A stretch of DNA of 64,000 bases, taken from positions 1 through 64,000 of the forward strand of contig JAKQNP010000032.1 in NCBI GenBank assembly GCA_029565675.1. The letters run 5' to 3'. The notes under the pieces were generated by a model, which was not told the DNA's origin, ran no database searches, and saw nothing but the letters and a program-made list of their open reading frames with translations. The first letter of the stretch is position 1, and each line of letters opens with the position of its first letter. Positions 858-11,866 of the stretch are shown one piece after another. This stretch comes from a bacterium. Lineage in GTDB: Bacteria; Zhuqueibacterota; Zhuqueibacteria; Residuimicrobiales; Oceaniaggregativiventaceae. Made by a program: the position numbers and the translations under genes.

Positions 858-1459
858 CCTGTCGTCCCGTCCGGGCACATGACCATTGGCGCGGTGTGAT
901 TTTTGATATGGATGGCACCCTGACGGTGCCGGTCATCGATTTCGCCGCCATGCGATCCCGGCTGGGGATCCCCTCCGGCGACATCCTGCACACCGTCAAA
1001 AACTGGCCGGAAACCCGACGACGTTGGGCTTTTTCCATTATTGAAGAGATCGAAGAAGAAGCCCTCGCACGGATGATCATTCAGGAGGGGTGTAACGAAG
1101 TTTTGGATTTTCTGCAAGACACCGGATTACCCCGGGCCATTGTCACCCGCAACACCCGGCGGACGGTCGATCTCTTCATGGCGCGGATCGAACGTCATTT
1201 CGATGTGGTGATTACCCGGGATTTCGAGCCGGTCAAACCCGCCCCGGACAGCGTGTTACACATCTGCGCGAAGTGGAAGACGACTCCGGATCGGGTCATT
1301 GTCGTGGGGGATTATCGCGATGATTTGCTTTGTGGACGAGCCGCGGGAGCGCACACCTGTCTGCTGAAAAATGACCGGAATGCCGAGTTTTCCGCGCTGG
1401 CCGATTATGTGGTCGAGACTTTGCCGGAATTAATGTCAATTCTGGGCGATTATCGGTAG
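854..1459 (+). CDS. HAD-family phosphatase (subfamily IA)
   Basis: A 201-residue protein with HAD motif I FDMDGT (nucleophile Asp18, acid/base Asp20), motif II in IVTRN, a conserved Lys in KPAPDS, and motif IV VVGDYRDD. An alpha-helical cap lies between motifs I and II, as in phosphoglycolate phosphatase-like enzymes. The substrate is unknown; such enzymes hydrolyse small phosphate esters in the cytoplasm. It starts within the ATGA overlap with the glutamate synthase-like gene, and its last 10 bases overlap the convergent sigma-54 regulator. It could be a metabolite-repair phosphatase; no residue singles out a substrate. Confidence 0.85.
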   Translation: MTCRPVRAHDHWRGVIFDMDGTLTVPVIDFAAMRSRLGIPSGDILHTVKNWPETRRRWAFSIIEEIEEEALARMIIQEGCNEVLDFLQDTGLPRAIVTRNTRRTVDLFMARIERHFDVVITRDFEPVKPAPDSVLHICAKWKTTPDRVIVVGDYRDDLLCGRAAGAHTCLLKNDRNAEFSALADYVVETLPELMSILGDYR

Positions 1460-2988
1460 TTTCGCGGCTCAATGCCGAGCTGTGCGATGCGATAATTGAT
1501 GATGCGCTGGGTGGTATGAAGGAATCGGGCGGCGGCGGCGGCGTTGCCGCGATGTTTCTTGAGGGCATCCACGATCAGTTCCCGTTCATAGGATTCCACC
1601 ATCACCTTCAGGTTGGCGCCATCCTGCGGAATCAGGGCGGTGTTGGTTTCCTCGCTGGTCTGCAGTGAGGGCGGCAGACTGTAACCATGAATGACATCAT
1701 CGGTGGTGGTCAGGAGGGCGCGTTCTATGCAATTTTCGAGTTCCCGAACATTACCGGGCCAATGGTAGGCCATCATCATGTTGATGGCCGGTGTCGATAT
1801 GCGCTTCACGTTTTTGCCGTGAATCGTATTGTATTTTTGGAGGAAATGGTCGGCCAGGAGAATGATGTCGGTTCGGCGCTCACGCAGGGGGGGGATGTGA
1901 ATGGGGAAGACATTCAGCCGATAATACAAATCCTCACGAAATTTTCCGGTGCGCATGTAATCTTCCAGGTTGCGGCTGGTGGCGGCGATGATCCGGACAT
2001 TGACGGTGATCGATCGATCGCCGCCCACGCGTTCAAAGGTGCGCTCCTGCAAGACCCGCAGTAGACGGATTTGAACGGGGAGCGAGATGTCGCCAATTTC
2101 ATCGAGGAACAGGGTTCCGCCATTGGCCAACTCGAAGCGGCCTTTTCGTTGTTGGGCGGCGCCGGTGAAAGCGCCTTTTTCGTGGCCGAACAACTCGCTC
2201 TCGATCAGATGATCCGGCAAAGCAGCGCAGTTAATCGCCACCATCGGCCGGCTGCATCGGCGGCTCTGGCGATGTATGGCGCGGGCGATCAGTTCCTTGC
2301 CGGTGCCGCTCTCGCCGGTGATTAAAACCGGCACATCTTCGCCGGCGACCCGATCCACCATCTCGATAACCTGGTGGATGCTGTCTGATTCGCCGAGTAT
2401 CTCCTCATAATCATTGCGCCGAAAAAGGGGGAAAACCGGCCGAGGTACCGACTTTTGCCTGCTTTTTTCTTTGCCGCAGCGGATCGATCGCTCACCGCAG
2501 AGGACAAGCAAATTGTTCAACATGCGCAGCACATCGATTTCAGGAACCGTATAATCGGTTCCATCCGCCTTTTTGCCCAACAACAAGACCGCCAGATGGC
2601 TTTCGTCCAAAAAGAGAGGAATCCTGAACTCGATACACGCTTGATTTTCGAGTTCGGGATCCAAATAGAGGTAAAAACGATCGGTATGGCGCAAATCCGG
2701 GCCCAGAATCTCCCACCCGGAATCCAGCAGATCCTTCACCGAACCCGTGATCCGCAGTTGCGGTTTCTGTCGGCGGATCAAAGGATTACCGCGATGCGAT
2801 TCACAGATCAGCGTCTTTTTGTCGAGATCGAAGAGCATGAGGAAAACATCGCTCGGATTAACCAGGTCATCGACCACCTGGACCGCCAGTTCGCACAAGC
2901 TGGAAATATCGGAATCCGATATCAACCGGTCGCTCAAATTCGCCAAGCGCTCGAGCATCTTGGGGATATTCTGAGAGGATTTTTGCAC
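1450..2988 (-). CDS. Sigma-54-dependent transcriptional activator, NifA-like (GAF, AAA+, Fis HTH)
   Basis: This 512-residue activator has an N-terminal GAF-like sensory region (about 20-165), an AAA+ domain (about 195-420) with Walker A GESGTGKE at 225-232, the sigma-54 contact loop GAFTGA at 272-277 and Walker B in [11 protein letters not shown], and a C-terminal Fis-type helix-turn-helix ending in [14 protein letters not shown], which resembles NifA. It should remodel the RNA polymerase-sigma54 complex at enhancer-dependent promoters. Translation appears to start at GTG 2988 behind an AGAGGTG ribosome-binding site. It is the last gene of the MBL-TonB-ExbB-ExbD operon, so it may respond to envelope or nutrient status, but the targets are not visible. 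Nothing else here proves a nitrogen-fixation role. Confidence 0.9.
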
Positions 2989-3032: not shown

Positions 3033-3440
3033 TCAGCGGCCCTCATCCATACGGGTGCCGATCACCATTTTTTTCAAGCCCACTGCCCTGGCTGTATCCA
3101 TCACCCGCACAACCAGTCCATGTTCGGCGGCCTGATCCGCTTTTAAAACCAGCGTTTTGTCTTCAATTTGAGGATATCGGCTTTTCAATGCTGCAGCGAG
3201 GCTGTCACGCTCCACCAGAACGTCGTTCAAGTAAATCTCCCCCGTACTGGTGATATAGACCGCCAGATTTTCCAATCGCGCCACTTCACTGGTTTGCGTC
3301 TGCGGCAATTCGAGTTTCATGCCCGGCTGCTCGATAAAACTCGAGGTGACCATAAAAAAAATCAACAAAATGAACATCACATCGATCAAGGAGGTGATGT
3401 TGATGCCGATGCGTTTCTGTTTTTTCTCTGTCAATCGCAC
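3033..3440 (-). CDS. exbD: ExbD/TolR family biopolymer transport protein
   Basis: A 135-residue protein with a short cytoplasmic N-terminus, one transmembrane helix (INITSLIDVMFILLIFFMVT) that carries the essential membrane Asp of the family, and a periplasmic alpha/beta domain. ExbD works with ExbB in the inner membrane to convert proton motive force into movement of a TonB or TolA partner. It starts at GTG 3440 behind a GAGGG stretch, three bases after the exbB stop, and sits directly after tonB-like and exbB genes. TolR is an alternative name, but no tolA, tolB or pal is present. Confidence 0.92.
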   Translation of the reverse strand: MRLTEKKQKRIGINITSLIDVMFILLIFFMVTSSFIEQPGMKLELPQTQTSEVARLENLAVYITSTGEIYLNDVLVERDSLAAALKSRYPQIEDKTLVLKADQAAEHGLVVRVMDTARAVGLKKMVIGTRMDEGR

Positions 3441-3443
3441 GTT

Positions 3444-4091
3444 TTATCCCTCGGTTGCGCTCAAGTCCTGTCGCTCGGTTGCATGCAAAGCACGGATACG
3501 CTGCAACATCGCATTGGAGTGTTTTTCGATATCGAGCACCAAATCCTCAGCGCGATGGGTATAAAAGTTATAGGCGACCAGAATCGGTATACCGATCACC
3601 AATCCGGTGGCGGTGGTGATCAGGGCTTCCGAGATGCCGCCGGCCAGCAAGCTCGCCTGGCCTGTGCCTTGCGCCGAAATTACAGTAAAGACCTTTATCA
3701 TGCCGATCACTGTTCCCAGCAGCCCCAACAGCGGCGCCACGCCGGCGATCATTTCCAGAACCGAAAGTCCTCTTTCCAGACTTCTGATTTCCTGGCGCCC
3801 CTGGTCCTCGATCAATTCCTTGATCTCAGCCTTGTCCAAATGACGGTTTTGCAGTCCCACCAGGATGATGTTGGCAAAGGGACCAGGCTGCTTTTTGCAC
3901 AGGCTTTTTGCCATTTGAATATCTTGTTCGCTGTCGATCGAATGGATCAAGCGAACGAGTTCAGGATGTAAAATGCGCCGTCGGTGCAGGTTGATCGATT
4001 TTTCCAGGATGATTGCCAAACCGAGTACCGAGCACAACAACAGCGGAATCATCACCACCCCGCCGCGAGTCAAATAAGCTAATGCGTCCAT
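3444..4091 (-). CDS. exbB: ExbB/TolQ/MotA family proton channel
   Basis: A 215-residue inner-membrane protein with the expected three hydrophobic helices: one near residues 10-30 (VVMIPLLLCSVLGLAIILE) and two in the C-terminal half around APLLGLLGTVIGMIKVF and ATGLVIGIPILVAYNFY. The GLLGTVIGM segment is the family hallmark. With ExbD it forms the proton-conducting motor that energises TonB. It lies 60 bases downstream of the tonB-like gene and 3 bases before exbD. As with ExbD, TolQ is the alternative name. Confidence 0.92.
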   Translation of the reverse strand: MDALAYLTRGGVVMIPLLLCSVLGLAIILEKSINLHRRRILHPELVRLIHSIDSEQDIQMAKSLCKKQPGPFANIILVGLQNRHLDKAEIKELIEDQGRQEIRSLERGLSVLEMIAGVAPLLGLLGTVIGMIKVFTVISAQGTGQASLLAGGISEALITTATGLVIGIPILVAYNFYTHRAEDLVLDIEKHSNAMLQRIRALHATERQDLSATEG

Positions 4092-4151
4092 AGACCTGCA
4101 AAATTTGGGTACAAAAACATGATCCGCCTGTTTGCGCAGGGAATCAACGGA

Positions 4152-5102
4152 TTAACGGAGAATCGAGTAAATAAAAGTCCAGGTCAATTCCAAATAGTCT
4201 TCCGGGAAAAAATCCGGCAGTTGTTTGAATGGATTCGAGGCCTTGACCGCATTGACACTGGTTTCCATCAATGCGGGGTGGCCGGAATAGGAAAGCACCG
4301 CCAGATCCTGCACACTCCCGTCCGGATAGACGCGAAATCTGAGCACGGTTTCGCCGCTGATCATGCCCATCTGGGAGAACGCCGGCGGCGGATAAACATT
4401 GCGGCGGATTTTATTCTTCATGGCCAACAAGTACGGAGCAAAATCCCAGGCGTAGGTATTCAGCGACACATCGCCGAGCGCATCGGCACTGAATTGCTGC
4501 TGATTGAAATCCACATCATCGCTGAAATCTCCCGGCGTCTGTTGGTCATTTCTCGCACTTTGACGCAGCATCGATGCATGAAACGGCTTGACCGCTTGCC
4601 GGCGATAGACTTGCTGCTCCAATCCGAGTTGCTGATCTTGAGGTTGCGGAGACTGCGGCTGTACAGAAGATTCCTGCGGAGTTGCTTCGCCGCCGCCCGA
4701 GAAAACGCGGTAGTCTGTCTGACCGGTTGAATAGGGCATACCCGAGACAAGATCATTCCGTTCCACGAGATCGCTAGCTCTGGCATTTTTGTCGGAGAAA
4801 AACCGGCTGTCGTTCTGCGGTTCGTCAACAGCCGCGTCAGCCGGTGTTTCGACCAATTCGAAAACGATCGGCTGGAAATCTTCCTGCAATTTCGGCGCTT
4901 CCGGGGTGGAAATCGGCAACAACAATGCGTTGAAAAATGGCCGATAGAGAAAGACAAAAACCAGATGGAACAACAGGGATAAACACAATGCCAGCCAAAA
5001 TCCTTTTCTGCCCTGTGGCGGCTGGACGGCCCAGGGCACAGGTATCGCATTGGCGCCTCTCGGTCGATTCTTGCGCAGAGTGGTGTCGTTAGGCAAATTC
5101 AC
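4152..5102 (-). CDS. tonB: TonB-like energy transducer
   Basis: The protein (about 316 residues) has a single N-terminal membrane helix (FWLALCLSLLFHLVFVFLY), including the His of the TonB SxxxH-type helix, a long low-complexity periplasmic linker rich in Gln, Pro and Ser, and a C-terminal TonB-type domain (SGETVLRFRVYPDGSVQDL ... AVKASNPFKQLP). It should carry ExbBD energy to outer-membrane receptors. I prefer the GTG at 5102, which sits behind GAGGAACCAC; GTG 5114 would add four residues. Either start overlaps the end of the upstream MBL gene, which suggests coupled translation. The substrate receptor is not in the window. Confidence 0.85.
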   Translation of the reverse strand: MNLPNDTTLRKNRPRGANAIPVPWAVQPPQGRKGFWLALCLSLLFHLVFVFLYRPFFNALLLPISTPEAPKLQEDFQPIVFELVETPADAAVDEPQNDSRFFSDKNARASDLVERNDLVSGMPYSTGQTDYRVFSGGGEATPQESSVQPQSPQPQDQQLGLEQQVYRRQAVKPFHASMLRQSARNDQQTPGDFSDDVDFNQQQFSADALGDVSLNTYAWDFAPYLLAMKNKIRRNVYPPPAFSQMGMISGETVLRFRVYPDGSVQDLAVLSYSGHPALMETSVNAVKASNPFKQLPDFFPEDYLELTWTFIYSILR

Positions 5103-5871
5103 GTGGTTCCTCACCGATAGCGACCGACATCAGATCAGCTGCAGCTTCGACGGGTCCGTCATAAATGCGGCGACAGCCGGCAATTGCCGCTGAAATATCG
5201 AGGCTTGGATAGAAATGGGTCAACAACAGGCGTCGGCATCCGGACTCCTGCGCAATTCGGCCGGCCAGAGAGGGAGTCAGGTGCTCATCAATGGCCAGCT
5301 CATCGGGGAAAGAACATTCCAATATCCCCAGATCGACATTCGCAAACAGCGCGACGACTTCCGGACAATATCCGGTATCCCCGGAATAAGCCAGAGTGCA
5401 TGAATTGCACTGTAATCTGTAGCCATAGCTGACTGGTTTATGCTTCATCGGTAGTGCGGAAATCAGGCATGAACCCAGCTGGATTTCGCTGTCGATTTCC
5501 TCGATCTGCAAGGTAAAGGGGGTCTGGCGCATGACCCAGTCGCCGTGCAACTCATGTTGGCCGCGCAGATAAGCGAGCAGACCAGGAGGGCCGAATAGTG
5601 AAAGGGTTTTCCGCCGGGTGAAATTGGGAGTAAAATGCAAAGCCATAAGCAAGGGGACCAGATCAGCGACATGGTCGGGATGAAGATGGCTGATCACCAC
5701 GGCGTCGATCGCGCGATAATTCAGCCCGGCTTCAGCGAGACGTCGGAGAGAGCCGAATCCGATGTCGAGCAGGAAAAATTGCTCGCCGATTTGCAGTGCG
5801 TACGAAGAGCAAGAGCGCTCTTTTGTCACCGCACAGGTGCCTGAGCCGAGGATCGTCACTTTAAAAAGCAT
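5089..5871 (-). CDS. Metallo-beta-lactamase fold hydrolase, RNase Z-like
   Basis: A 260-residue MBL-fold protein with metal-binding motif SHLHPDHVADL, a second metal site around YSGDTGYCPE, and a late His in LLLTHFYP. The N-terminal ILGSGTC start resembles the RNase Z/arylsulfatase-like branch, but the long exosite arm of tRNase Z is not apparent, so I do not call it rnz. It is the first gene of the tonB-exbB-exbD-regulator operon and overlaps tonB by 14-26 bases depending on the tonB start. Its substrate is unknown. Confidence 0.85.
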   Translation of the reverse strand: MLFKVTILGSGTCAVTKERSCSSYALQIGEQFFLLDIGFGSLRRLAEAGLNYRAIDAVVISHLHPDHVADLVPLLMALHFTPNFTRRKTLSLFGPPGLLAYLRGQHELHGDWVMRQTPFTLQIEEIDSEIQLGSCLISALPMKHKPVSYGYRLQCNSCTLAYSGDTGYCPEVVALFANVDLGILECSFPDELAIDEHLTPSLAGRIAQESGCRRLLLTHFYPSLDISAAIAGCRRIYDGPVEAAADLMSVAIGEEPREFA

Positions 5872-6182: not shown

Positions 6183-7154
6183 ATGAAAAAAGCGATCTTG
6201 ATTTCGATCGGTTTTCACTTGCTCCTTTTGGCAATCTCGGTTATTTATAAGCTCAATCCGCAAATTGCAGAAAAGGCGCTTTGGATCGAACTGGAATTCA
6301 AAACATCTGATCTCTCGGTGAAATCGCCGGTCGAACCTCCCCGCGCTGTCACCTCTGCCGCTGCTCGAGCAGCAATTTTATCACCATTTGCAGAACAAGT
6401 CCAGGCAAAAGAGACCGTGCCGGTCCCGACCGAGCCGCAGACAGAATCAGATTGGAGCTCGCTTTTTATGGACTCGCTGAGAATCCTGCAGTTTAGACCA
6501 TTGCAGACCTTTTCAGATTCCCTACCCGTGATGCCAAAAATCCAGCCATACCTTCCGCCTGCCGGCTATGGACCGCCGCTTGGCCGCAACACTTCTTTGA
6601 CTGATGCAATCAAACGCGAATTGAATGGCCCTTCCAGCGCCGCTGAGCCGGTGGTACCGCTGAGCCGAATCGTTGAAAGCGGCTTGCAGCTAGTGGCCGG
6701 CCAAAAATCGGATTCGCCAAAACCGCCAGAATTGGATTTTATCCCATCGATGGTCCAGATACAAGCGCTCAAGCTGTTATGGGAGACTGACAGTTTAAGC
6801 GGGCGCGACATCTATTCAGCCCTGGACCCGGCAACGCGAACCACGGCTCGTGATCTGGAACAGGAATTGGAGCTGCTGGTCAACAAACAACTTTTACAGC
6901 GTCAGATGATATCGCCGCGCAACGAATTGACTCTCGGGATACCTTTTGCAGCCCCGACGGTCGAGATGAGCGGCAAAAATCGGCGCAACCGCGAATACCG
7001 ATATCAGCCCCTCCTGCAAAAACAAGAACTGCTGGAATTTCTCAATGCGCTCGTCTATCGAAAACAGCAGGGATTGCCTTCTGACATTCAGCTGACCGCA
7101 GAAACAGTCGAGACGCTGCAAACGCGTGTGCTGCTTCTCACTGGCGACTTATAA
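6183..7154 (+). CDS. Membrane-anchored protein with C-terminal BlaI/MecI-like winged-helix region
   Basis: From ATG 6183 the protein is 323 residues. MKK is followed by one hydrophobic helix (AILISIGFHLLLLAISVIY) that resembles a TonB-type anchor, then about 170 residues of Pro- and Ser-rich linker. The C-terminal third contains ALKLLWETDSLSGRDIYSAL, a helical segment (RTTARDLEQELELLVNKQ) and REYRYQPLLQKQELL, in the order of the recognition and wing elements of BlaI/MecI/CopY repressors. The match is by eye. With the short positive N-terminus the anchor should leave the C-terminus periplasmic, which is odd for a DNA-binding fold; an inverted topology or protein-binding use is possible. The 3' end overlaps the convergent SDR gene by 6 bases. 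Confidence 0.6.
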   Translation: MKKAILISIGFHLLLLAISVIYKLNPQIAEKALWIELEFKTSDLSVKSPVEPPRAVTSAAARAAILSPFAEQVQAKETVPVPTEPQTESDWSSLFMDSLRILQFRPLQTFSDSLPVMPKIQPYLPPAGYGPPLGRNTSLTDAIKRELNGPSSAAEPVVPLSRIVESGLQLVAGQKSDSPKPPELDFIPSMVQIQALKLLWETDSLSGRDIYSALDPATRTTARDLEQELELLVNKQLLQRQMISPRNELTLGIPFAAPTVEMSGKNRRNREYRYQPLLQKQELLEFLNALVYRKQQGLPSDIQLTAETVETLQTRVLLLTGDL

Positions 7155-8129
7155 CCATCCGGTCCGCCTATACCAGTCGACGGTTTGGCGAAATCCGGGC
7201 TCCAACTCGATTTGCGGCCGGAAAGTCAATTCAGCCTTGGCACGCGCATTGGAGCAGAGCCAGTTGGGCTGTTTCATCTCCCTCACCTTATCGCTGTTGA
7301 GCAGTGCCGGTCTTTTTTTAATTGCAGCGGCCAGCCGATTGACCGCAGAAACCGCATCGAGCAGCCAGAACGGGATGAACAAGCGGATCGGCTTTTTATT
7401 AAGGGTCCTGGCGACCAGATCGCCGATTGCATGCCAATTCCACTCTTCATCGCCGCTGAGATAATAGACACGGCCGTTTGCTTCTTTAACCTGGGAAGCC
7501 AAAAAGATCCCTCGCACCAGATCCTCGACATGGATCATACTGATTTTTTGGCGGCCATCACCCAACAGGGGCAAAATCCCTCGGTTGGCGCTGGCAAAAT
7601 AGGTCAGGATGTCGCGATCCCGAGGTCCATATACCGAAGGGGGACGAATGATGGCAGCGTGGCGATGCTGGCTGTATTTGAGTACGAGATCTTCGGCTTG
7701 CAGTTTCGAGCGGCCGTAAAGAGAGATCGGATTTGCCGGATCGGCTTCGGTGATCGGCCGATCGTCTGGGCTGGGACCGCCAGCCGCCTGGCTGGAAACG
7801 AAAACAAATTTTTGTTCAGCCGGGCTGAATTTTTCACAAGCATCGAGCAAGTTTTTTGTTGTTTGCACGTTGCCGGCAAAATAGGCTTGGGCATCTCGTG
7901 CCTTGGTCACGCCTGCCAGGTGAAAAACCAGATCGGTTTTTTTGAGCACCTGAGCGAGAGATTCCGGACTCCGCAAATCACCATAAATGGTTTTGACGGC
8001 CAGCGGTTGCAGCCACCGCAGATCGCTGGTTTTGCGAACCAAACAAAGGACTTCAGATCCTTTAGACAAAAGATACTCGACCAGAGTACTGCCGATGAAT
8101 CCATTGCTGCCTGTCACCAGAGCTCTCAT
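7149..8129 (-). CDS. NAD(P)-dependent epimerase/dehydratase-type SDR; candidate ceramide-pathway reductase
   Basis: A 326-residue extended SDR with the nucleotide motif TGSNGFIGSTL at the N-terminus, the catalytic Ser in VFVSSQAAGG and the YxxxK pair Tyr138/Lys142 in YGRSK. Such proteins oxidise, reduce or epimerise sugar nucleotides, steroids or lipids. The gene is divergent from a serine palmitoyltransferase-like gene, and in Caulobacter and Bacteroides the reductase of the bacterial ceramide pathway (CerR) belongs to the same epimerase-like SDR family, so that role is a reasonable inference. A general NDP-sugar epimerase or 3-beta-hydroxysteroid dehydrogenase-like role cannot be excluded. 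A promoter is proposed at 8169-8197. Confidence 0.8.
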   Translation of the reverse strand: MRALVTGSNGFIGSTLVEYLLSKGSEVLCLVRKTSDLRWLQPLAVKTIYGDLRSPESLAQVLKKTDLVFHLAGVTKARDAQAYFAGNVQTTKNLLDACEKFSPAEQKFVFVSSQAAGGPSPDDRPITEADPANPISLYGRSKLQAEDLVLKYSQHRHAAIIRPPSVYGPRDRDILTYFASANRGILPLLGDGRQKISMIHVEDLVRGIFLASQVKEANGRVYYLSGDEEWNWHAIGDLVARTLNKKPIRLFIPFWLLDAVSAVNRLAAAIKKRPALLNSDKVREMKQPNWLCSNARAKAELTFRPQIELEPGFRQTVDWYRRTGWL

Positions 8130-8168
8130 CTTTTCTCCTTGTCCCGCTGTGCAGTCAGATTGTACTTG

Positions 8169-8197
8169 AACATAGTAAAAACTGGGATGAGAATCAA
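8169..8197 (-). promoter_or_regulatory. Putative sigma-70-type promoter for the SDR gene
   Basis: Read on the minus strand: -35 TTGATT (8197-8192), 17-nt spacer, -10 TATGTT (8174-8169), about 40 bases before the SDR start. The same two hexamers and spacing occur upstream of the OPT transporter. Confidence 0.5.
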
Positions 8198-8358
8198 TGA
8201 TCCAGTGGTGTTTAGGGTTGCGCCATAAATTTTCTTTGATCTGCAGAGATCATCCGGCAACGATGCAAGAATGGCAAAAGAGGTAAAGCCAAGCTTTTAT
8301 GAGCCAATCCTGTCGTTTTGCATTCTGCAAACAAATCTCTCGTCAGTCATGTTTGAAC

Positions 8359-8387
8359 TTGACTATCGTCGCCTGAATAGCTATATT
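8359..8387 (+). promoter_or_regulatory. Putative sigma-70-type promoter for the serine palmitoyltransferase-like gene
   Basis: -35 TTGACT (8359-8364), 17-nt spacer, -10 TATATT (8382-8387). The start codon is at 8464, giving a leader of about 70 nt. Confidence 0.6.
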
Positions 8388-8463
8388 TTTATTATTTCTG
8401 GCAGCAATTCAGGGTAGTGATTCGGCTGACCGCAAATCCACTCGAAAGCTTAGGAGGCAAAGA

Positions 8464-9657
8464 TTGGCAGATCTTTTTGATAAATGTTCCAAAGGAACTT
8501 CTGCTCGAGCACGAGAAGCGATGCAAAGCGGTTGGTACCCCTATTTCAAGGCCATCGAATCCGGCGCAGACACCGAGGTGGTCATCAACAACAAGAAGAT
8601 GATCATGATCGGATCCAACAACTATCTCGGATTAACACAAGACGAACGCGTCAAGCGAGCCGCCATTCAAGCGATCGAAAAATTCGGCAGCGGCTGCACC
8701 GGTTCGCGGTTTCTCAACGGCACCCTCGCCTTGCATGAAGAACTCGAAGCACGGCTTGCGGATTTTATGCAAACCGAGGCGGTGTTAATTTTTTCCACCG
8801 GATTCCAGACCAATCAGGGGACCATCGCCTCAATCATCGGCCGGCGCGATCTTGCTGTCGGAGACAATGAAAATCATGCCAGCATCGTGGATGGAACGCG
8901 GTTGGCTTTTGGCAAAGCGCTGAAATACCGCCACAACGACATGAAAGATCTCGACAAAATCTTAACGCTGAACAAGGGCAACAAACACGGCATATTGGTG
9001 GTCAGCGACGGGGTTTTCAGCATGGGTGGCGATATTGTCGACCTGCCCAACCTGGTGGAGGTGGCGCAAAAACACGGCGCCAAGGTGATGATCGATGACG
9101 CCCACTCGATCGGTGTTCTCGGCGCCCACGGTCGCGGAACCGCTGAGCATTTCGGTTTGCAGGACAAAGTCGATCTGGTCATGGGTACGTTTAGCAAATC
9201 TTTCGCTTCCATAGGTGGCTTCATCGCCGGCAAGGAAGAAGTGGTTCACTATATCAAGCATGTATCGCGGGCGCTGATCTTTTCCGCCAGCCCGCCACCC
9301 GCCGCAGTAGCGACGGTTATTGCAGCGCTGGACATTCTGCAAAAAGAGCCTGAGCGGCGTGAAAGATTGTGGGCGCATTACCACAAGATGAAAAACAGTT
9401 TTGACGATATGGGATTCAATACGGGTCTGTCGCAAACGCCGATCATCCCGATCATTCTCGGGGACGACACAAAGACCTTTACATTTTGGCGCCGACTTTT
9501 TGAGGAGGGTATTTTTTCCAATCCCATCATCAGTCCAGCTGTGCCGGCTGGACAGTCTTTGATCCGCACCAGTTATATGGCAACTCATACGGACAAAGAA
9601 CTCGATTTTGTTTTGGATGTTTTTTACAAAGTCGGCAAAGAGATGAAGTTAATCTAA
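8464..9657 (+). CDS. spt: Serine palmitoyltransferase-like alpha-oxoamine synthase
   Basis: A 397-residue PLP enzyme of the family that condenses an amino acid with an acyl-CoA. Visible are IGSNNYLGLT near the N-terminus, DDAHSIGVLG for cofactor binding, and the Schiff-base Lys245 in GTFSKSFASIGG. The N-terminal MADLFDKCSK and the GWYPYFKAIES region look closer to Bacteroidetes serine palmitoyltransferases than to KBL or BioF, and no thr dehydrogenase or bio gene is nearby. The start is a TTG at 8464, supported by AGGAGG six bases upstream. The divergent SDR would fit the later reduction step of dihydroceramide synthesis. KBL (2-amino-3-ketobutyrate CoA ligase) is the main alternative. A bidirectional terminator follows at 9662-9687. 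Confidence 0.8.
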   Translation: MADLFDKCSKGTSARAREAMQSGWYPYFKAIESGADTEVVINNKKMIMIGSNNYLGLTQDERVKRAAIQAIEKFGSGCTGSRFLNGTLALHEELEARLADFMQTEAVLIFSTGFQTNQGTIASIIGRRDLAVGDNENHASIVDGTRLAFGKALKYRHNDMKDLDKILTLNKGNKHGILVVSDGVFSMGGDIVDLPNLVEVAQKHGAKVMIDDAHSIGVLGAHGRGTAEHFGLQDKVDLVMGTFSKSFASIGGFIAGKEEVVHYIKHVSRALIFSASPPPAAVATVIAALDILQKEPERRERLWAHYHKMKNSFDDMGFNTGLSQTPIIPIILGDDTKTFTFWRRLFEEGIFSNPIISPAVPAGQSLIRTSYMATHTDKELDFVLDVFYKVGKEMKLI

Positions 9658-9688: not shown

Positions 9689-10024
9689 TCAGTCCAACCA
9701 ATACAGCATTCTGCCGCAATTTTCGCAGGTAAAAATTTCTTCATCTTCTCGCCCGCGCGCCGCCAGAGAAGTCGGCTGGCGCAAAAAGCATCCCAAACAG
9801 ATATCGTTCTTGACCGGCACAATTGCGCGTTTTAACTTGGCGCGCAATCGCTCGTAGCGGGACAACAAGGGTCTGCTGATCTGATTGGCCAACTCTTCGC
9901 GCGCTTTCTGCAATTCATCATAGCCGGTCACGTTGAAGCCCAGTTTGGCGACCTCGTCAGTCTCCTGAATCATCAAGTCCAGATCCTGCAGAGAAACCAA
10001 TCTTTCCAAATCATTCATCGCCAT
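9689..10024 (-). CDS. C4-type zinc-ribbon coiled-coil protein
   Basis: About 111 residues from ATG 10024, chosen because GGAGA lies 8 bases upstream; a longer start would run into the upstream PTS gene. An N-terminal helical, probably coiled-coil region is followed by a zinc ribbon with CLGC and CENC pairs near the C-terminus (final MLYWLD). The layout matches the C-terminal half of the 'C4-type zinc ribbon' (DUF164/CdsZ-like) proteins, which are often associated with nucleic acid or regulatory functions, but this one is shorter than the usual 230-250 residues. Last gene of the manC-unknown-EIIA cluster. Confidence 0.7.
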   Translation of the reverse strand: MAMNDLERLVSLQDLDLMIQETDEVAKLGFNVTGYDELQKAREELANQISRPLLSRYERLRAKLKRAIVPVKNDICLGCFLRQPTSLAARGREDEEIFTCENCGRMLYWLD

Positions 10025-10028
10025 TTTG

Positions 10029-10490
10029 CTATTCTCCACGGATGACCTCAATAAACTCGTTATACTCTCGCACCGCTTTCATGCGTTGCAGATTTTCCGC
10101 ATCGCTCAAAATGGGCATCAGACTGCCCAAAATTTGCAGATAGACATTGCCTTCATCATTCGGTGGGGCGATGACCATAAAAAAGAGATGCACCGGTTTG
10201 CCGTCCATTGCATCAAAAGGGACTCCTGCAGTGGATTTACCAAAGGCAATCAAAACATCAGAAGCGGCGACTGTCCGCCCATGCGGGATGGCTACCCCTT
10301 TACCGATTCCTGTACTGCCCAATTTTTCACGCTGGTGCAACATCTCCAGAACGATTGCCGAATTGCGGATATGCTTTTCTTTGACAAACAGGTCCAACAG
10401 CTCTTTGAGAACCGCTTCCTTGTCCGTCGCTTTCAGTTCCGGGATAAACAGTGCAGGATTGAAATGAGATGCCAGCTCACTTTTTCTCAT
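10029..10490 (-). CDS. PTS EIIA domain protein, PtsN/fructose type
   Basis: A 153-residue EIIA domain of the fructose/mannitol class with the phosphoacceptor His70 in GIGKGVAIPHGR. No EIIB, EIIC, EI or HPr gene is adjacent, so a regulatory PtsN-like (nitrogen-PTS) role is more likely than sugar uptake; no rpoN or hpf gene is beside it. The gene begins one base after the stop of the unknown protein upstream and ends five bases before the zinc-ribbon start, so the three are almost certainly co-transcribed. Confidence 0.88.
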   Translation of the reverse strand: MRKSELASHFNPALFIPELKATDKEAVLKELLDLFVKEKHIRNSAIVLEMLHQREKLGSTGIGKGVAIPHGRTVAASDVLIAFGKSTAGVPFDAMDGKPVHLFFMVIAPPNDEGNVYLQILGSLMPILSDAENLQRMKAVREYNEFIEVIRGE

Positions 10491-10838
10491 TTATTCCTCC
10501 TCCAATAAAACAGAATCATTTGTATCTGAACTTACGCCGAAACGCATCATGACTTCGCGAACAGCCGGGGGCACATATATCCCTTCGAGAGAAACCTGGC
10601 TGAGGTAATGGCTGAGGGCAACAATTTTTTTCACTGTGCTGTCATTTTTTTGCAGGACAACCAAAGATTGATCGTAAATTCGGCAAGCTCCCCCCGAAAA
10701 ATCGCCTTTTTCATAGCGCAGTTCGACATTCAGCGCCTTGACCATGGTCTCCAGTGCTTGCAGCAGCTCTTCGTTGCTCAGCTGTTCGCTTAGAGGTATT
10801 TCTCTGACTTTTCGTGTCTTAGTTTTTCGACCACCCAT
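10491..10838 (-). CDS. Conserved-looking protein of unknown function
   Basis: A 115-residue soluble protein without signal peptide or membrane helix. The N-terminus is basic (KTKTRKVRE), the centre reads LNVELRYEKGDFSGGACR then YDQSLVVLQKNDS, and the C-terminus is acidic. The centre recalls a small mixed alpha/beta domain, but I cannot name a family. It overlaps the end of manC by 49 bases and abuts the EIIA gene, so it belongs to that transcription unit. A link to nucleotide-sugar synthesis or PTS regulation is contextual only. Confidence 0.65.
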   Translation of the reverse strand: MGGRKTKTRKVREIPLSEQLSNEELLQALETMVKALNVELRYEKGDFSGGACRIYDQSLVVLQKNDSTVKKIVALSHYLSQVSLEGIYVPPAVREVMMRFGVSSDTNDSVLLEEE

Positions 10839-11866
10839 TTGACTTCCTGTGCGCGAGAGCGATTGCAGATTAGCAGAATATCGGGTGTATCCACAACGAC
10901 AAGATCTTCAACCCCGATCAGAGCAACCAATTTTTCCGCCTCGATCAAATTTCCATGACTGTCTTTGGCAATAAGGGTTGCAGAACCGGCATTGTTGTTT
11001 TCATCCTTTGCTGACAGATTATAGGTTTCCTCCCAACCGCCCAAATCGCTCCAGCCAAAATCACCTTCAACCACCAAAACCTGGCTGGCATTCTCCATCA
11101 CCCCATAATCGATCGATTGTCCGTTCAAACGGTTATAAACCTGTTCAACCACCTGATCTTTTTGTCCGCTGTCGAGGGACTGTCTGATTTCCAGCAACCC
11201 GGCATAGAGATCCGGCATCAACTCTGCGATATAATTGAGAATGGTTTCTGCATACCAGGTAAAAATACCGCTATTCCATAGAAACTCGCCGCTGTGGTAA
11301 AATTGCCTGGCGACTTCCGCGTTTGGTTTTTCGGCAAAGGCGCGAACCCGAAACGCGTTGTCGCAACGATTATCGAGCTTTTCTCCGCGCTGGATATAGC
11401 CATAACCCGTTGCCGGATAGCTGGGTTGGATCCCAAGAGTGACCAAAGCCTGGCGGTTTTCATGCACCAGACCAACAGCCTGTTGCAGGAGTCGAGTGAA
11501 TTTCTTGCAATCGCTGATCAGGTGATCTGAAGGCATGACGACCATAACAGCCTCAGGATCGCGGTGATAAATATGCAAAGCTGCCAAACCAATGCATGGC
11601 GCAGTGTTGCGTGCAGTCGGCTCAAAAATGATGTTTTCGACAGGCAGATCAGGCAATTGCTGGAGCAAGAGATCGCGGTGTGATCTGCTTGCCACCACCC
11701 AAATGCGGTCAACCGGCAATAGATGCCGAATGCGGCTTTGCGAAGATTGAATCAGGGTTTCGTTGCCGATTAGCTGAAGAAATTGTTTGGGGATCGACTT
11801 GCGACTGCGCGGCCAAAAACGGCTGCCGAATCCGCCGGCCATGATCACAGCATGTGTCTGCTTCAT
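10790..11866 (-). CDS. manC: Mannose-1-phosphate guanylyltransferase
   Basis: A 358-residue nucleotidyltransferase that makes GDP-mannose from GTP and mannose-1-phosphate. It shows the signature VIMAGGFGSRFWPRSR with KQFLQL, PTARNTAPCIGLAA, MPSDHLI, FAEKPN and a late GWSDLGGWEE, all typical of ManC/RfbM. The length equals the single-domain (type without isomerase fusion) enzymes. GDP-mannose feeds glycan and lipopolysaccharide synthesis. The 3' end overlaps the next gene by 49 bases, an unusually long same-strand overlap. Confidence 0.93.
   Translation of the reverse strand: MKQTHAVIMAGGFGSRFWPRSRKSIPKQFLQLIGNETLIQSSQSRIRHLLPVDRIWVVASRSHRDLLLQQLPDLPVENIIFEPTARNTAPCIGLAALHIYHRDPEAVMVVMPSDHLISDCKKFTRLLQQAVGLVHENRQALVTLGIQPSYPATGYGYIQRGEKLDNRCDNAFRVRAFAEKPNAEVARQFYHSGEFLWNSGIFTWYAETILNYIAELMPDLYAGLLEIRQSLDSGQKDQVVEQVYNRLNGQSIDYGVMENASQVLVVEGDFGWSDLGGWEETYNLSAKDENNNAGSATLIAKDSHGNLIEAEKLVALIGVEDLVVVDTPDILLICNRSRAQEVKWVVEKLRHEKSEKYL

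Follow-up and report, generated by a model that had tools for sequence, protein, structure and literature searches.

The DNA analysed here, referred to as the window, is a 64,000-nucleotide stretch (G000:C42:1-64000) of a bacterial genome of 4.43 Mb that is distributed over 64 contigs and is 95.1% complete. It carries spt, a gene for a serine palmitoyltransferase (Spt)-like enzyme, and, on the opposite strand, a gene for an epimerase-type short-chain dehydrogenase/reductase (SDR). These two genes very probably encode enzymes of a bacterial ceramide pathway, spt the one for its first step and the SDR gene the reductase. The divergent transcription of the pair had been reported in a first-pass annotation of this DNA, and both open reading frames (ORFs) are indeed found as listed in Table 1, with gaps of 334 bases between them and 31 bases on the other side of spt. 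The closest relatives of the spt product that carry a KSB1 label are 85%, 79%, and 68% identical to it, and the window appears to derive from candidate division KSB1 (Zhuqueibacterota), an uncultured group.

Table 1. Genes, putative regulatory sites, and neighbouring features of the spt locus (positions in the window).
Feature	Position	Strand	Remarks
spt, serine palmitoyltransferase (alpha-oxoamine synthase), by phylogeny and residues	8464-9657	+	397 aa, TTG start
cerR-like extended SDR, putative ceramide / 3-ketosphinganine reductase	7149-8129	-	326 aa, ATG start
Shine-Dalgarno AGGAGG of spt	8452-8457	+	six bases 5' of TTG
Shine-Dalgarno-like AAGGAG of the SDR gene	8135-8140	-	five bases 5' of ATG
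spt promoter TTGACT-17-TATATT	8359-8387	+	consensus scan and conservation
Candidate promoter site of the SDR gene	8277-8249	-	9/12 consensus match
NifA-like sigma-54 activator	1450-2988		
ExbD-, TolQ/ExbB-, and TonB-C-terminal-like proteins, adjoining	3033-5114	-	
RNase Z-like metallo-beta-lactamase	5089-5871		
Zinc-ribbon protein, phosphotransferase system (PTS) EIIA-type protein, unknown 115-aa protein, mannose-1-phosphate guanylyltransferase-like protein	9689-11866	-	
PTS EIIA-type protein	10029-10490	-	

The Serine Palmitoyltransferase

Among the NCBIfam models, NF047600 (CFB Spt) ranks first for the spt product at 538.6 bits, followed by TIGR01825 (431.7 bits), the beta-proteobacterial Spt (406.1 bits) and, lower still, glycine C-acetyltransferase (395.1 bits) and BioF (385.9 bits); all of the KBL, BioF, and HemA models remain at or below 431.7 bits. 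The best match in the PDB is the Sphingobacterium SPT at 416.5 bits, with E. coli KBL at 251.5 bits and a cysteate C-fatty acyltransferase (28eh) at 241.5 bits. We take 3a2b and 8guh to be structures of the Sphingobacterium SPT.

In a phylogenetic tree of 74 rows, the window's enzyme lies in a 61-row clade (support 100/99) together with the crystallised SPTs 3a2b and 2x8u and the Spts of Sphingomonas, Rahnella, Diaphorobacter, Roseomonas, Streptomyces, Bacteroides, and Parabacteroides, and the KBL, BioF, and HemA sequences fall outside this clade. The genome encodes a separate KBL (L002), 58% identical to E. coli Kbl, which sits in the KBL clade. Within the Spt clade, the KSB1 enzymes form a 37-row clade of their own (99/98) that includes the window and lies outside the Bacteroidota clade; the 39 KSB1-labelled rows besides the window all join the window's clade except L088 and L089, which are second Spts of genomes G023 and G060. 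The tree was rooted at its midpoint, with BioF and HemA as long branches, and it omitted L011 (same genome as L070), L009 (a same-genus relative), rows shorter than 330 aa (L026, L030), and loci in which another frame had been called (L073, L082, L086, L096).

The residues agree with the tree. At diagnostic columns, defined as those where six Spt references share a residue that occurs in none of nine KBL, BioF, and HemA rows, the window has the Spt residue at 10 of 10. Its motifs include the pyridoxal phosphate lysine K245 in GTFSKS, His138 in HAS, and PAVP from residue 358. The last of these, the acyl-chain motif, reads PAVP in 3a2b as well and PATP in Sphingomonas; human SPTLC2 has PATP with a suggested role in acyl-chain binding and B. 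thetaiotaomicron has PACA (PMC10865984). Phylogeny and residues thus support the identification of the product as a serine palmitoyltransferase, with the catalysis predicted from homology, and the earlier description of the enzyme as Spt-like holds against the KBL, BioF, and HemA references.

The CerR-like Reductase

The SDR is of the extended type (Epimerase, PF01370), with a GxxGxxG motif and YGRSK in the place of YxxxK. When the Rahnella CerR is used as a query against the whole genome, the window SDR is the best match at 1e-25 and the next stands at 5e-14. A tree of 33 rows, which took in 21 of 30 cluster members, places the window SDR in a 26-row clade (98/94) with 21 Spt-linked SDRs, the Sphingomonas and Rahnella CerRs, and SDRs of Streptomyces and Diaphorobacter, and seven SDR paralogs from the window's own genome lie outside it. 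The tree and the best match support the first-pass proposal of a CerR candidate, so the SDR is described here as CerR-like, with ceramide reduction as its putative role.

The gene orders around the reference sequences are informative as well. On the Rahnella plasmid, a fatty acyl-AMP ligase, an epimerase-family SDR, an acyl carrier protein (ACP), and Spt follow one another, an order equal to that of Caulobacter aasR-cerR-acpR-spt (CC_1165 to CC_1162; PMC11324152). The Sphingomonas cluster consists of SDR, ACP, Spt, an ATP-binding protein, lptF, lptG, a desaturase, and an N-acetyltransferase; the N-acyltransferase CC_1154 of Caulobacter has the LptF2/LptG2 genes (CC_1156, CC_1155) as neighbours (PMC11324152). 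KdsR (NF049977) was also considered as the genome's own reductase. Its best match there scores 108.3 bits against a cut-off of 400, a result which, with sub-cut-off matches in 13 of 14 control genomes, says only that the genome has no clear KdsR.

Linkage of spt with SDR and GNAT Genes

Gene neighbourhoods were compared in 21 loci from the 22 genomes of the window's order (window included, G038 left out) and in 31 loci from the 45 Spt-bearing KSB1 genomes outside this order (14 genomes left out); loci L026-L029 were left out as well. An SDR gene stands divergent beside spt in 16 of the 21 order loci, and the other five comprise three with at most 355 bases upstream and two with the SDR elsewhere. 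Among the 31 other KSB1 loci, 20 have an SDR match 5' of spt, of which 17 are divergent and three are weak co-directional matches (24-27%) that probably represent another SDR; a GNAT gene lies directly 3' of spt in 28.

The linkage extends beyond the phylum, where an SDR was found in nine and a GNAT in six of 21 chosen loci. The SDR is again divergent beside spt in Ignavibacterium and Aminicenantes loci, the genes of L013, L014, and L016 share one orientation as SDR-spt-GNAT, and on a plasmid of Streptomyces (L135, NZ_CP108712.1) spt, GNAT, an epimerase-family SDR, and a condensation-domain gene follow one another. At L018 and L022, the spt-adjacent SDR is of another type, with KdsR as the best model for L018, the one scanned, at 309.5 bits (cut-off 400). 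Since the divergent linkage recurs in the order, in other KSB1 loci, and in Ignavibacterium and Aminicenantes loci, the arrangement of SDR and spt is not a chance one.

Several loci are of separate interest. In L135, the three-gene set is complete on a plasmid of an actinobacterium. Beside the SDR-spt-GNAT operon of L013 lies a PAP2-family gene (L013:5800-6669), a candidate head-group enzyme that is weakly similar to phosphoinositol dihydroceramide synthase (34.4 bits; cut-off 480). In genome G063, a GNAT and a CerR-like SDR gene are adjoining and divergent (G063:C94:330822-333220), away from spt on C153, which is a further link between those two genes.

Candidate Ceramide Synthase Genes

The gene 3' of spt encodes about 375 aa in many loci, and its product is GNAT-like in two of the three that were scanned with Pfam. 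The proteins in the position of the bacterial ceramide synthase (bCerS) in Rahnella and Sphingomonas are 39% and 36% identical, respectively, to the spt-adjacent GNAT of L078. In the window's order, the third pathway gene lies outside the locus, though most of the other KSB1 loci that were compared have it 3' of spt. The genome does encode bCerS-like proteins, as the first-pass reading would lead one to expect: three tandem-GNAT homologs, all away from the locus, are matched by the Rahnella bCerS-position query on C62 (5e-57), C4 (1e-53), and C2 (1e-40). The L078 query also has C62 as its best match (1.9e-98 vs 1.6e-80), and when the C62 protein is the query, a tally of coordinates over the 45 Spt-bearing genomes that do not belong to the window's order puts the best match no more than 450 bases from spt in 35. 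This best-hit evidence favours G000:C62:248799-249962 as the bCerS candidate.

A structure predicted from six spt-linked homologs (first row L012) is a tandem GNAT with a mean pLDDT of 73.7. Its best structural match is 7q3a, also a tandem GNAT (Z 22.2, root-mean-square deviation 3.9 over 305 residues), and N-myristoyltransferases match it at a Z of about 14-15; such matches show fold, not function. A PDB sequence search with the genome's own GNAT returned nothing meaningful. The assumption that bCerS is a PF04339 (FemAB-like) protein was dropped because the Sphingomonas and Rahnella bCerS-position genes resemble the spt-adjacent GNATs and have no match to PF04339; the window's genome has only a sub-threshold match (20.7 vs 27 bits).

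Co-occurrence and Loss in the Phylum

Co-occurrence was counted in 79 genomes of the phylum, out of 82 in the set. An Spt match of at least 60% identity is present in 67 of them (split over two contigs in one), and the remaining 12 comprise ten with Spt matches of at most 42% and two without any at 1e-60. CerR matches at 1e-60 or better likewise occur in 67 genomes. Both genes are found in 62 genomes, neither in seven, and only one in ten (one-sided Fisher test, 1.6e-4). The seven genomes without a GNAT match at 1e-30 are all among the 12 without spt (Fisher, 2.7e-7), and because five of them belong to one family they do not represent seven independent events. All three genes are present in 62 of the 79 genomes when any GNAT paralog is counted. 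One family (f9) shows joint loss of spt, CerR, and GNAT: G013 (98% complete, 20 contigs), G035, and G045 are without Spt, GNAT, and CerR at 1e-60, and the complete set is present in two further members of the family, G033 and G054.

Proposed Pathway and Alternative Explanations

Catalysis, substrates, step order, and lipid product are predicted here from gene phylogeny, linkage, and co-occurrence. Spt would form 3-ketosphinganine by condensing L-serine and a long acyl thioester, which is probably an acyl-CoA. The tandem-GNAT bCerS encoded elsewhere in the genome would add the second acyl chain; reduction of the 3-keto group, the task of the divergent CerR-like SDR, would yield dihydroceramide. 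Acyl-CoA is the favoured donor because Bacteroidetes Spts are reported to use it (PMC11324152) and because no ACP is encoded among the 16 neighbour proteins scanned with Pfam, a scan that left out smaller ORFs. Reduction could come before or after acylation. The order is disputed in the field: Caulobacter data assign CerR to the periplasm and to a step that follows bCerS (PMC11087976), whereas a 3-ketosphinganine reductase is present in B. thetaiotaomicron (PMC9278070).

A number of observations weigh against this interpretation. The NF047600 score of the spt product falls below the curated cut-off of 640, and for this reason the enzyme is not filed as a CFB-type Spt but as an Spt of a neighbouring clade. 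The window SDR is only 29% identical to the Rahnella CerR, and the proteins used as CerR and bCerS references themselves owe their names to plasmid gene order rather than to an assay. A GNAT gene stands beside spt in 0 of the 21 order loci, in which downstream sequence is limited (102 bases in one locus and about 1,500 in several). The GNAT tree (31 of 33 members, two contig-end fragments dropped) places the genome's three paralogs on long branches and does not resolve the choice of bCerS, which is why best hits were used to pick the candidate. CerR matches at 1e-60 are kept without spt in G021, G028, G034, G072, and G073, GNAT matches at 1e-30 are kept without spt in G028, G034, G067, G068, and G073, and five spt-bearing genomes have no CerR at 1e-60; several of the genomes with such discordant calls are incomplete. 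The co-occurrence statistics ignore phylogeny, and their thresholds were set after the results had been seen.

These points were weighed together with three other explanations of the locus. The enzyme could be a KBL- or BioF-like synthase of central metabolism, active in threonine breakdown or biotin synthesis, with the SDR unrelated to it. All these enzymes belong to one superfamily and the glycine C-acetyltransferase and BioF models do reach 395 and 386 bits; nevertheless, the well-supported Spt clade that leaves KBL, BioF, and HemA outside, the separate KBL of the same genome, the full set of Spt residues at the diagnostic columns, and the way spt is linked to, and lost together with, SDR and GNAT genes make this highly improbable. 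It is unlikely, to a lesser degree, that the enzyme makes a related non-ceramide base from cysteate, alanine, glycine, or another amino acid, leading to a sulfonolipid (capnine) or a 1-deoxysphingolipid. The solved cysteate C-fatty acyltransferase 28eh is a homolog, and a Black Sea study states that alanine can be used by Spt and proposes other amino acids as well (PMC11334938). As a match to the window's enzyme, 28eh stands far below SPT (241.5 vs 416.5 bits), although the choice of amino acid is beyond what these sequence tests can settle.

The remaining explanation concerns the SDR, which could be a sugar-nucleotide or hopanoid-associated (HpnA-like) epimerase that is divergent from spt by chance. 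HpnA is in fact its best NCBIfam model at 138.4 bits, but this is far below the HpnA cut-off of 367.65, and for the two proteobacterial references of CerR, too, HpnA is the top model, at 83 and 86 bits. The genome has no hopene cyclase match, a weak test given that the control genomes were all under the cut-off. With the grouping of the SDR among CerRs and a linkage to spt that spans several phyla, an HpnA-like role is quite improbable, and a ceramide pathway with Spt and a CerR-like reductase is the interpretation retained here.

A FemAB-Spt Fusion and Other Spt Carriers

The second Spt of G023 is part of a 787-aa ORF (L088:7871-10234, G023:C18) in which a FemAB-like/Acetyltransf_6 region (PF04339, 52.9 bits; PF13480, 43.9 bits) is fused to an Spt that shares about 48% identity with the window's. 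The other locus of this genome has a normal spt with a divergent SDR and no GNAT beside spt, and the best GNAT match in the genome reaches only 4e-36. A match to the acyltransferase partner of the fusion at 1e-40 occurs in one of the 82 genomes. That the fused acyltransferase replaces bCerS in G023 is a guess with which these findings would agree. A wider scenario, which we regard as doubtful, would have ceramide-type lipids as ancestral and vertically kept in the whole of KSB1/Zhuqueibacterota, with spt, cerR, and bcerS lost as a unit in part of one family, and with a FemAB-type N-acyltransferase, fused to the second Spt, taking the place of the usual GNAT in G023, so that a single chain would serve the first two steps.

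Enzymes of the Spt clade, about 45% identical to that of the window, are also encoded by Asgard archaea (Promethearchaeaceae; L023, L024, L025). One of them lies on a 4.36-Mb contig, and no SDR or GNAT homolog stands beside these three; a literature search for Asgard and serine palmitoyltransferase found no paper. Spt homologs that are 48-50% identical to the Sphingomonas wittichii Spt occur on plasmids of Diaphorobacter (L115, NZ_CP065408.1, the conjugative IncP plasmid pDCB2), Klebsiella, and E. coli.

Promoters and Neighbouring Genes

The first-pass annotation had placed two good promoters in the region between spt and the SDR gene. A consensus scan of positions 8100-8500 finds two sigma-70-like sites against 0.7 +/- 0.9 in shuffled sequences. 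Counterparts of the spt site stand 5' of spt in 17 of the 21 order loci, the window counted among them, and each keeps the 17-base spacing and TATATT; when 700-base upstream stretches from six of these loci were put through 12,000 mononucleotide shuffles, 52 matches arose. On the SDR side, the site has its consensus match, and a looser search for another -35/-10 pair 5' of the SDR gene in 16 loci gives matches at scattered distances. Of the two, only the spt promoter is thus supported beyond the consensus. Among the neighbouring genes in Table 1, the four-protein block at 9689-11866 is found again beside spt in many KSB1 loci.

Relation to Known Systems and Significance

The pathway of Caulobacter and other Rhodobacteria consists of Spt, CerR, bCerS, AcpR, and AasR, and homologous Spt, SDR, and GNAT proteins are encoded in KSB1, a comparison made through the Sphingomonas and Rahnella clusters and not Caulobacter itself. 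In contrast to that pathway, the window has no ACP among the scanned neighbours, spt and the SDR gene are divergent, the GNAT gene is unlinked, and within the Spt clade the enzyme occupies a different branch. Among Bacteroidota Spts (3a2b, Parabacteroides, Bacteroides), 3a2b is the closest solved relative and shares PAVP with the window, but the KSB1 Spts form their own clade and the window's enzyme scores under the NF047600 cut-off. The Spt-like clade B described from the Black Sea (PMC11334938) is similar in its broad distribution over phyla and in the approach taken.

Sphingolipid production outside Bacteroidetes and Alphaproteobacteria had been called sparsely documented in the first-pass annotation. 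At the gene level this is outdated, since Spt-like proteins are reported in metagenome-assembled genomes of 38 phyla, which raised the phylum count from 9 to 40 (PMC11334938). KSB1 is not named in the main text of that paper, its supplements being outside the search. A sediment study names Chloroflexota and other phyla (PMC12619533), the Zhuqueibacterota paper contains no word starting with "lipid" or "sphingo", and a literature search for KSB1 and sphingolipid found no paper. The kind of pathway is already known; its near phylum-wide occurrence in KSB1 was not found in print within the literature searched.

The present analysis adds a nearly phylum-wide, gene-complete predicted ceramide pathway for an uncultured phylum of the Bacteroidota neighbourhood, and the candidate gene set, including the unlinked bCerS candidates, is now named. 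The recurrent linkage of spt, GNAT, and SDR genes across phyla provides comparative support for a three-enzyme bacterial pathway. If the enzymes work as proposed, KSB1 bacteria would have to be counted among the sources of sphingolipids in the environment.

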